From Arbacia lixula (lineage: Eukaryota > Echinodermata > Echinoidea > Arbacioida > Arbaciidae), in the NCBI GenBank assembly GCA_963669155.1, contig OZ022577.1, positions 7,563,788 through 7,627,787 on the forward strand: DNA of 64,000 bases, written 5' to 3'. Numbering within the stretch: the stretch's first letter is position 1; each line of letters begins with the position of its first letter. The notes below the pieces were generated by a model. It did no database searches. It was not told the DNA's origin and saw only the letters and a list, made by a program, of their open reading frames with translations. Positions 40,701 to 46,700 of this stretch are shown in pieces. The translations under genes were made by a program, and so were the position numbers.

Positions 40701-43700
40701 CTTACTGTATTTCTGTTTGAGAAGCATATGGTTAATGATTATGTGGTTGGAAGTGAAGCCTTAGTAAACTAAACGCAGTTATGATCATGTTGTTTTTAGC
40801 TCAGCTAGGTTAATATAATATGATATGACCATATGACCATGAGTGTAGATTTGTTTTGGTCTCCTCCACCTGCAAACACCTTCATTCTTCAAAGAAAAAA
40901 TCCAGTAACGTGAGAAGTGTAAAATGCTGCTGTATTGTTCTTACTATGAATATCACAGTATGTGTCAGTTTTTTTCTGATGCAAGGCTTGCATTTTATTA
41001 TTTTTTCCCCATCTAGAGAGGAATCTGAAGAAGAGCAACCAATTCAGAAAGCCAAGAAGCCAGGTCCAAAGCTTGAAAAAATAAGTCGCAGAGTTGAGAG
41101 AGAGGAGCGACAAGATGAGGAGGATGAGGATGACGAGGAGGATGACTCGGAGGATGACTCGGAAGAGGAAGAGGATGAAGAAGAGGAAGAAGAAGAAGTT
41201 TTTGAAGCTGAAGAGGAGTCAGGGGAGGAGGAAGAGGAGGAAGATAATTTCAAAGCTCCAGATGAAGGGGTACGTTCACCCATTGCTCATGTTCAGATTT
41301 TCTGGCTTTGTAATCCCTGGTTCACTTTGGATGTGGAAATTTGAAATGGAACTGCTCTATCCAAAGGGGTGTGGTTTAATTGTGTCCTATAAGGTATTTG
41401 AAGTTTAAGTGGAGCCTGTTGTCTACTGTCCGAACAGCAGATTATTTGGGAGTCGTGCTGCTTAGTATCTGAGTGTAAACAACATGTTGATGTTGGCCAA
41501 ATCTTAAGCAATTTATGTAGGCAATCTAATATCCATATAAGGCCCACATTCTCAAAAGGAAACTCAACTTTAATGTAGGTTCCAACTTCCAAGTGTAATG
41601 GGTATATATCATAATGTACTTCTTCTAACTGCTATATTTGATGAAAGCAGCAAGACCTTGTACAACTGGGCAGAAACTAGTATGTTTGTATAGCAACCTG
41701 AAAGATGAAATGACAATGTGATGAGGGCATTCTAAGAGCTTCCTGGAAGAAGTATAATCTCATAGGATTTCCTGGGCGCATGATCACGTGCATCTTTGGA
41801 AATGAAAGGAAACATGTTCTATGCAATGAGGACATAGAAGGAATGTGCAAGGACATTACACGGACATTTTTTTTTTCTCTGCAAGGAGTAAGTTCACACT
41901 TTTTCCACTCTATGGCTAAGTGAGATCTTGATAAGTCTTCTGGGGGCCCTAACAAGGACATTGAGATAAAAGATCTACAATATTTCATCATAATGAGGAC
42001 ATGGGGATGTATGAAGGACATTGTTACAATTAGGAACAGTTTACAAGGAATGCAGCCTTTGAAAAATCAAATGTCTTTTTGATGTTCTTATGTTGTTCCT
42101 CATACTTTTATATGAAATGCTGGCCTGTCAGAGACGACTTGATTGTGATCATCCACCATGAGGCTAGGATAGAGCTCTTAATTCTCAGATCATTCCAGCT
42201 TCTACTGTCTAAACTCAAGTTGAGAAAAAAAACATAACAATTCTGTGATTTGAATGATACCGTGAATATCAGGGAAGAAGATTGGTGAAAGTTTGAGCTA
42301 AATGAGATGTTCTACTTCTGCCATAGGGGCGGTTGTGAAAATCATTGTTGAGATTTTGATCTTATCCGAGTAATAGTCCTCGTGGATAACCAATGAGTTC
42401 ATTTGACCAGAAATATGATATGAGATGTAAGATATATGGGAATCATTGGTCCTACATCTACAGTGAAGATTCACACAAAAAAGTCAACAATGAATGAGAT
42501 CCAATCTTTGAATGCGAGTTTCTTAAATTAACATATCAGTTATGGCTCGTGTTTCTGTTTCATCATATATTCTCATAAGTGCAGCTTTTGTATAGATTTG
42601 TTGTACATACATTGTTGCAGATGGATCTGTTTGAGGCGGTGTGTGACTTTGATGGTGAGGAGGATGATGATCTGAGCTTTAAGAGAGGTGCAGTGGTCAC
42701 AGTGCTTAGTATCAGGTACAGTTATAAAATCAGTCTTATAAGGAACTTTTCTCCAGTATGCAAGCATTCTCAGCATTTACAGAATCGTACATAATTGATT
42801 TGTCACGGTCAGCCTCGTATGCACTCATGATTTTTTTTATGTATGTATATATCCCCCTTTTTTGTTTTGTTCTTGTAGTCGATCGCATTAAAATCAATTT
42901 GTATCAAATTGAATTTATTTAGTATATTGAGTGGAAATTCGTATAGGTTGAAAAAAATTATAATCTAACAGAATTGTGCAATAATCTATTTTGTTCTGTG
43001 TGCAAATCTTATACATGTCGTTCAAACAACATGTTACAAGTGGTTTCCCAAAGTTGTCTGAGTTTTGTCCGAGTAGCAGCAATTAATTGATCCAGACTGC
43101 ATTCCATGAATTGAAACTGAGTCATTAGTTGCAACACGTTTTTTTCACAGAGGAAATGGCCAATTTACGTTTGCACCCCATATAGTGTTATTTCAGTATC
43201 TAGATTCAGAATATGCACTAAGTTAAAGTATGGCTAAGGCTATACAGTATTTGATGTTTGAAAATAGTGATTGCATTGGAAGAAGTTGAGTTTGTTTTTG
43301 CTTGTTGTGACAGGGAGGATGGCTGGTGGATGGCTGAGGATGAGGAAGGGAACAAGGGACTGGTACCTAGTACATACCTCAAGGTAAGAAATAATACAGA
43401 TAATGACAATTTTATCATGTCATGGTTTCTTGCCCAGTACATACCTCAAGGTAAGAAATAATACTGATAATGACAATTTTATCATGTCATGGTTTCTTTC
43501 CTAGTACATACCTTAAGGTAAGATACAATACTGATAATGACAACGTCATCATGTCATGGTTTCTTGCCTAGTACATACCTTAAGGTAAGATACAATACTG
43601 ATAATGGCAACTTTATCATGTCATGGTTTCTTGCCCAGTACATACTTCAAGGTAAGATACAATACTGATAATGACAACTTTATCATGTCATGGTTTCTTG

Positions 43701-46700
43701 CCCAGTACATACCTCAAGGTAAGATACAATACTGATAATGACAACTTTATCATGTCATGGTTTCTTGCCCAGTACATACCTCAAGGTAAGATACAATACT
43801 GATAATGACAACTTTATCATGTCATGGTTTCTTGCCCAGTACATACCTCAAGGTAAGATACAATACTGATAATGGCAACTTTATCATGTCATGGTTTCTT
43901 TCCTAGTACATACTTCAAGGTAAGATACAATACTGATAATGACAACTTTATCATGTCATGGTTTCTTGCCTAGTACATACCTCAAGGTTAGATACAATAC
44001 AGATAATGATAACGTCATCATGTCATGGTTTCTTGCCCAGTACATACCTCAAGGTAAGATACAATACTGATAATGACAACTTTATCATGTCATGGTTTCT
44101 TGCCCAGTACATACCTCAAGGTAAGATACAATACTGATAATGGCAACTTTATCATGTCATGGTTTCTTTCCTAGTACATACTTCAAGGTAAGATACAATA
44201 CTGATAATGACAACTTTATCATGTCATGGTTTCTTGCCTAGTACATACCTCAAGGTTAGATACAATACAGATAATGATAACGTCATCATGTCATGGTTTC
44301 TTGCCCAGTACATACCTCAAGGTAAGATACAATACTGATAATGACAACTTTATCATGTCATGGTTTCTTGCCCAGTGCATACCTCAAGGTAAGATACAAT
44401 ACTGATAATGACAACTTTATCATGTCATGGTTTCTTGCCTAGTACATACCTCAAGGTTAGATACAATACTGATAATGACAACTTTATCATGTCATGGTTT
44501 CTTTCCTAGTACATACCTCAAGGTAAGATTCCATACTGATAATGACAACTTCATCATGTCATGGTTTCTTGCCCACTACATACCTCAAGGTAAGATACAA
44601 TACTGATAATGACAACTTTATCATGTCATGGTTTCTTTCCTAGTACATACCTCAAGGTAAGATTCCATACTGATAATGACAACTTCATCATGTCATGGTT
44701 TCTTGCCCACTACATACCTCAAGGTAAGATTCCATACTGATAATGACAACTTTATCATGTCATGGTTTCTTGCCCAGTACATACCTCAAGGTAAGATACA
44801 ATACTGATAATGACAACTTTATCATGTCATGGTTTCTTGCCCAGTGCATACCTCAAGGTAAGATACAATACTGATAATGACAACTTTATCATGTCATGGT
44901 TTCTTGCCCAGTACATACTTCAAGGTAAGATACAATATTGATAATGACAACGTCATCATGTCATGGTTTCTTTCCCAGTACAGTGGAGCCTGAGATCAAC
45001 GTCACAGCTGATTGCAATCAAATGCAATCAGCTCCATACATTAACTGCAGTCTGACTGCAATAGATTGCAATCACCTGTGACGTTGATCTCAGGCCCAAC
45101 TGTACATACCTCAAGGTAAGATACAATATTAATAATGACAACTTTATCATGTCATGGTTTCTTGCCCGCTACATACCTCAAGGTACTATACAATACTGAT
45201 AATGACAACTTTATCATGTCATGGTTTCTTGCCCAGTACATATTTCAAGGTAAGATACAATACTGATAATGATAACTTTATCATGTCATGGTTTCTTTCC
45301 TAGTACATACCTCAAGGTAAGATACAATACTGATAATGACAACTTTATCATGTCATGGTTTCTTGCCCAGTGCATACCTCAAGGTAAGATACAATACTGA
45401 TAATGACAACATTATCATGTCATGGTTTCTTGCCTAGTACATACCTCAAGGTAAGATACAATACTGATAATGACAACTTTATCATGTCATGGTTTCTTGC
45501 CCAGTACATACCTCAAGGTTAGATACAATACAGATAATGATAACGCTATCATGTCATGGTTTCTTTCCTAGTACATACCTCAAGGTAAGATACAATACTG
45601 ATAATGACAACTTTATCATGTCATGGTTTCTTTCCTAGTACATACCTCAAGGTAAGATACAATACTGATAATGACAACTTTATCATGTCATGGTTTCTTT
45701 CCTAGTACATACTTCAAGGTAAGATACAATACTGATAATGACAACTTTATCATGTCATGGTTTCTTGCCCAGTGCATACCTCAAGGTAAGATACAATACT
45801 GATAATGACAACTTTATCATGTCATGGTTTCTTGCCCAGTACATACCTCAAGGTAAGATACAATACAGATAATGATAACGCTATCATGTCATGGTTTCTT
45901 GCCCAGTACATACCTCAAGGTAAGATACAATACTGATAATGACAACTTTATCATGCCATGGTTTCTTGCCCAGTACATACCTCAAGGTTAGATACAACAC
46001 TGACAATGACAACTTTATCATGTCATGGTTTCTTTCCCAGTACATACCTCAAGGTAAGATACCATACTGATAATGACAACTTTATAATATCATGGTTTCT
46101 TTTACAGTACATACTTCGAGGTAAGATTCAATAACCACGAGTTAGTTGTTGGATATATCATGGTTGTGGGTTAGTTCAATTTATATTATATGAAATTCTA
46201 TGGGGCAAACTTGGTATGGGTGATGTAATGACATCTTTATGATATGTCTGCATTTGTTTGAACCTTTGCCAGTCTGTTTCATTAATGGTTCTACTTTGAA
46301 TGAATTCAGCTTGCTTTGCCCTTTAATACAACACCTGTCTGGTGGGATGAATAGCAAATATGACAGGCAGAAATGTATACATGCCATGTCATGGTACTAT
46401 TGAATGGCTTGCATTATACATGTAGTTTGAGCAAAGTCAATGAACTTCATCAAGGGTCAAATTATGAATGTTTAAGGTGCTGAATTGAATACAGTCTACT
46501 ATCCAATTTAAAACGTTTCATCAAAGTTCTAAATTTTAAGATATTGAAATGATGATTTTGATTACTGAATGGAATTTTGGATGTTTTTCTTCATCGTTTG
46601 ATATTTTTCAGCTGAAAAAGGAGCACAATGATTACAGAGATGTTCAGTCCCCTGAGCCAGATGGTATGATCACAACTTTTTTTCTTATCTTTAAAACAAA

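Follow-up and report, generated by a model that had tools for sequence, protein, structure and literature searches.

The 64,000-nucleotide window of the Arbacia lixula genome analysed here, meaning the whole stretch of DNA under study, contains a nephrocystin-1-like gene in which a long tandem array begins at the end of an exon. Among the best 120 of 640 matches, the joined exon translations were most similar to the nephrocystin-1-like protein of Lytechinus variegatus (76%), followed by proteins of crinoids (61%), sea stars (59%), and Branchiostoma lanceolatum (47%–48%). As protein identities peak at Lytechinus, the gene is, on protein comparison, NPHP1 of an echinoid, and these identities led to the rejection of an amphioxus origin. 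Both the naming of the gene as NPHP1 and the position of the array at an exon junction agree with the initial annotation. The exon at which the array starts (43314..43383, forward strand, first donor after 43383) encodes the second half of an SH3 domain and, together with the preceding exon, the whole domain. The next NPHP1 exon lies at 46612..46663 on the same strand; both exons were located by protein comparison. Taken alone, the SH3 domain scored slightly higher against GRB2 chains than against nephrocystin-1 (57 vs. 54 bits). For the protein map, matches composed of more than 60% E, K, D, S, and R were dropped, and weak matches in the acidic and lysine-rich parts (24%–26% identity) were set aside.

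The array spans 43371..46120 (forward strand; repeat coordinates and TRF) and consists of 40 exon tails of 13 nt and 39 intron-like segments of 54 nt. The tails are TACATACCTCAAG or close variants of this word, the first starting at 43371 and the last at 46108. In each unit, the tail TACATACCTCAAG runs into a strong donor (AAG/GTAAGA) and then into a 54-nt stretch with a pyrimidine tract and a (C/T)AG end. The donor 9-mer AAGGTAAGA is found in 33 of the 40 donors, GT and AG are both present in 35 of the 39 periods, and TRF reports a period of 67 with a score of 4315 and 89% matches. The repeat coordinates bear out the anatomy first proposed, a 13-nt tail plus a 54-nt intron-like segment in units of 67 bp. 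The accompanying claim of 39 exact periods holds for their number, but only 38 of the 39 spacings between tails measure exactly 67 bp; the remaining one is stretched to 191 bp by a 122-bp MITE (44981..45102, no strand assigned), which has terminal inverted repeats and lies between units 24 and 25, and by its TA target duplication. The 20-base terminal word of this MITE has 432 matches in the genome (225 forward, 207 reverse; control 0). The last tail and the intron after it (46108..46174, forward strand) show no clear homology to the unit past the donor.

An array of this kind at the SH3 exon end is far beyond chance. In a 22-base comparison of 28 exon ends, 18 of them distinct, the best downstream echo of the SH3 exon end had 0 of 22 mismatches vs. 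at least 7 of 22 at 16 other distinct exon ends, and tandem echoes with at most 5 of 22 mismatches were found at two of the 18, the SH3 exon and the exon encoding VDPSISRR. The input included one mis-set donor ("A nph2") and left out the acidic and lysine-rich exons. Null rows often reached 0 because the searched 3-kb stretches hold other true exon ends; this makes the null unreliable, and the test is therefore read by its mismatch counts.

With weak low-complexity matches set aside, the middle NPHP1 exons were placed twice in the window, and the array has two lengths, 39 periods in one copy and one period in the other. Sequence comparison locates the exon and array of the short copy, probably the other haplotype, at 25103..25239 (forward strand), where the array itself (25160-25239) is a single period with two tails. 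The array exon differs between the copies at 2 of 70 bases, and the intron following it measures 3228 nt in the long-array copy and 558 nt in the other. The long array is located on a contig (35633..57146, forward strand) flanked by 200-N gaps at 35433-35632 and 57147-57346. In total, 19419 of its 21514 bases can be aligned to the contig on the left. The collinear aligned pieces of 14998-35432 and 35633-57146 are 92.7%–95.4% identical. Two unaligned stretches of more than 50 bases were found in the second contig, one in the array where it surrounds the MITE (44937-45169), the other a Tc1-like insertion (48595-50286). This insertion of ~1.7 kb is present only in the second copy and has a minus-strand frame of 354 codons, stop to stop, that matches transposase domains of the Tc1/Sleeping Beauty type. 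Another ~2.4 kb (21266-23689) are present in the first copy only and have flanking inverted repeats of 0.69 kb that are 96.7% alike. At the contig ends (34321-35432 and 57347-58401), segments of 0.1–0.75 kb are clustered in both direct and inverted copies (96%–100% alike); an adjoining of the left and right contigs from a 111-bp identical overlap was considered and dropped, this segment having several direct and inverted copies.

The first exons, corresponding to amino acids 2–102 of the Lytechinus protein, were placed at 11234-13087 only, and the last exons (amino acids 882–1024) at 61568-63999 only. Because the second copy is one gap-bounded contig without the first and last exons, we infer from alignment and exon content that the two copies are probably two haplotypes and that the second contig is a haplotig of 14998-35432 left in the scaffold. 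The accessible text of PMC11310861 gives a heterozygosity of 3.47%–4.40% for A. lixula and states that the assembly was processed with purge_dups, so that a left-over haplotig must have slipped past that step. A true partial tandem duplication on one chromosome, with copies that are not haplotypes, would explain why they sit side by side in one scaffold, but is unlikely given that the second copy coincides with a single contig flanked by 200-N gaps on both sides, is missing the first and last exons, and aligns to the left contig over 19419 of its 21514 bases. The initial annotation had described another allele with a single period; a short second copy with one period does exist at 25160-25239, but its standing as an allele is probable and depends on the haplotig reading.

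The composition of the array gives some indication of how it grew. Its 39 units fall into 25 types, and a block of types FGHI at units 7–10 is repeated in the adjacent units 11–14; this side-by-side arrangement indicates that multi-unit blocks were copied. Unit similarity at lag 4 has a permutation p of 0.002, but this lag was selected post hoc, being the lowest among the 12 inspected. Unit 1 deviates from the consensus at 4 positions and unit 39 at 6, and inner units reach 5–7 differences. The intron stretch that founded the unit is weakly recognisable, and the score of this source segment was reached by none of 119 forward control windows, by 2 of 119 reverse ones, and by 8 of 5000 shuffled queries. 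A partial match near 46225 is no more than suggestive. The last unit was considered as an old full copy and rejected, its ungapped identity over the last 41 nt being 11, equal to the background mean. The array length could be suspected to be an assembly artefact, as the array contig sits between two gaps, but this is extremely unlikely in view of the 25 distinct unit types, the MITE inside, the largely aperiodic unit order, and an assembly made from HiFi reads according to the accessible text of PMC11310861.

A second NPHP1 boundary array with ~106-bp units, identified by TRF and sequence at the end of another exon of the gene, has five tails in the long-array copy at 56164..56700 and two tails in the other copy at 34023..34250 (both forward strand, ends approximate); when read by sequence, its units have no clear acceptor adjoining the tail. 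Because both copies have at least two tails at both NPHP1 arrays, the initial duplications are probably older than the divergence of the copies, unless the short one has contracted. In the proposed sequence of events, a short piece comprising the last 13 nt of the NPHP1 exon and the intron start would have been tandemly duplicated, and slippage or unequal exchange, including the copying of multi-unit blocks, would then have amplified it to 39 periods.

Donor 1 is the sole donor that keeps the frame. Among the computed donors 2–7, donor 2 shifts the frame and donors 3–7 run into a stop in unit 2, and all donors after 7 contain the same stop-bearing stretch. If donor 1 is joined to the acceptor ahead of 46612, the resulting junction peptide is insertion-free, as in the compared proteins P0121-P0124, P0001, and P0004, and the peptide is slightly changed in P0002 (MKK) and P0003 (GMVPSTYLKLKR). 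This comparison covered 14 of 146 proteins, of which the eight from echinoderms and hemichordates agree apart from these slight changes and the remaining six differ more. Judged by the frame and by analogy to the mirages of amphioxus, which are minisatellites at exon/intron boundaries, the first donor is most likely used. The spliceosome would take this donor and the acceptor before the exon at 46612, and the whole array would leave within the 3.2-kb intron with the protein unchanged. The identity of most donors in nine positions counts against this first-donor reading. Recursive splicing was rejected as a candidate, as donor 1 joined to a unit acceptor reads AAG/TAC in the sequence and provides no GT donor.

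With the consensus tail and 0–6 inclusions computed, one, two, four, or five micro-exons lead to stops, and three or six stay in frame with 13 additional residues per three. The earlier statement that micro-exons change the frame unless included in threes is consistent with this result, but given the stops at 1, 2, 4, or 5 inclusions, the proposed use of 13-nt micro-exons is not supported. These stops also weigh on the possibility that the array is a nursery for intron gain, in which a fraction of the units would turn into genuine mini-introns and micro-exons, as has been suggested for the globins of amphioxus. The complete GT-AG pairs in 35 of 39 periods would suit such a process, and it is a model put forward for mirages in the accessible text of PMC3087553. 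Nevertheless, we regard it as very improbable here: the introns would be 54 nt and the exons 13 nt long, three and six are the only inclusions of 0–6 that stay in frame, and only one of the five variant tail words is silent in the frame of the exon. By tail, 11 of the 40 carry an amino-acid change in this frame, two are silent, and 27 are unchanged.

Tests of the splice signals gave no pointer to selection on micro-exons or donors. Splice-signal columns showed no excess conservation, whether measured by changed cells (11 of 101, P 0.31) or by extra alleles (5 of 32, P 0.57), in a test weakened by homogenising unit copying. Predicted accessibility averaged 0.26 for array donors and 0.33 for 17 donors elsewhere in NPHP1, the two sets overlapping widely, and the idea that array donors are specially accessible relative to these 17 is not supported. 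These results bear on a functional reading of the array, in which the donors would titrate U1 or slow splicing down, NPHP1 output would depend on array length, and wrongly chosen donors would lead to nonsense-mediated decay. Such a role would agree with the nine positions shared by 33 of the 40 donors, with the GT and AG present in 35 of the 39 periods, and with the early stops from wrong choices. We nonetheless consider it quite improbable because the signal columns lack excess conservation, the array donors overlap widely in accessibility with those elsewhere in NPHP1 (0.26 vs. 0.33), and the other copy has just one period.

The unit is predicted to fold the donor GGUAAGA against UCUUGCC (z −2.31, 5 of 200 shuffles), and a 200-nt array stretch gave a similar value (z −2.13, 5 of 200 shuffles). 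Hairpin masking of donors was rejected as a candidate: the first donor is no more exposed than the others (0.15 vs. the array mean of 0.26), the fold is not seen in array 2 (z 0.26) or array 3 (z 0.33), and among 12 control arrays there is one with z −2.96 on one strand.

The initial annotation suggested a search for further exon-end arrays. Besides the second NPHP1 array, a third one was found in a 200-kb sample drawn from contig C2 in 1-Mb steps. It is located at a kinesin light chain exon end (L027:5586-6260) and has five tails with spacings of 155, 160, 130, and 152; its exon matches PDB kinesin light chain 1 with 155 bits (peptide hand-joined to the next exon). The sample contained 30 TRF rows with a period of at least 30, hand-collapsed to 18 loci, and exon-end location was established for one of these 18, the other 17 being scored by donor words alone. 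Four of these 17 score 8.0–8.5 for donor-like words, two in L013 and one each in L020 and L024 (L013:891-1165, L020:2779-2920, L024:1058-2057). Arrays cover ~3.25% of the sample (lengths hand-entered), and with ~60 exon ends assumed per 200 kb, about two chance overlaps are expected. Boundary arrays thus recur in the genome but not clearly above chance overlap, and the 200-kb sample gave no sign of special targeting of exon ends compared to such overlap.

Mirages have been described in amphioxus for Adh3 and the globins BflGb6 and BflGb9 (PMC3087553) and for PGBD5 and TnC (PMC3902484). According to the accessible text of PMC3087553, they vary in length between haplotypes, RT-PCR suggested that they are regularly spliced, and they were proposed as a route of intron gain in the globins. 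Parts of the literature also report somatic length instability for the Adh3 mirage and, for BflGb6, edge units that are less homogenised than inner ones. The NPHP1 array shares with mirages a tandem unit across an exon-intron boundary. Its lengths of 39 vs. 1 period would correspond to the haplotype differences of mirages if the copies are indeed haplotypes. It differs in its 39 periods, compared to the 6 and 3 repeat units given for BflGb6 in the text available, and in the MITE inside and the echinoid host. Mirages were described from cephalochordates, whereas the NPHP1 host is nearest to Lytechinus variegatus (76%), with Branchiostoma lanceolatum at 47%–48% among the best 120 of 640 matches; this difference concerns the taxon and not the structure that defines mirages. 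No echinoderm or sea-urchin mirage was found by title or abstract in the literature searched, most subscription papers being outside its reach. In the Rogers model, as given for the potato RdRp in the accessible text of PMC4974935, a duplicated exonic AGGT segment becomes a new intron with the peptide unchanged. As in the NPHP1 array, tandem duplication supplies GT and AG, but the NPHP1 repeat straddles a boundary that was already there and adds length to the intron behind it. The intron gain first envisaged is thus not supported, and micro-exons would shift the frame unless three or six were included.

The array is real and striking, and as a long echinoid mirage it belongs to a known class of structures. 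We consider it likely that it is a boundary-spanning mirage minisatellite that grew by slippage or unequal exchange and is spliced from the first donor with the protein unchanged. A more far-reaching proposal, which we regard as improbable, is that exon-end arrays are common in this genome and form a pool of polymorphic splice units, so that ~40 near-identical donors compete behind a single exon, array length alters the fidelity or rate of NPHP1 splicing, and 13-nt micro-exons, now and then included in threes, add in-frame protein. If this were true, the birth of introns and exons would be observable in living populations. Read as a mirage, the array adds an echinoderm to the lancelets from which the literature found reports such structures, and this one genome has three of them. 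Furthermore, because the two copies differ by 39 vs. 1 periods and their exon at 2 of 70 bases, they offer a natural test of how splicing picks the first of 40 near-identical donors.
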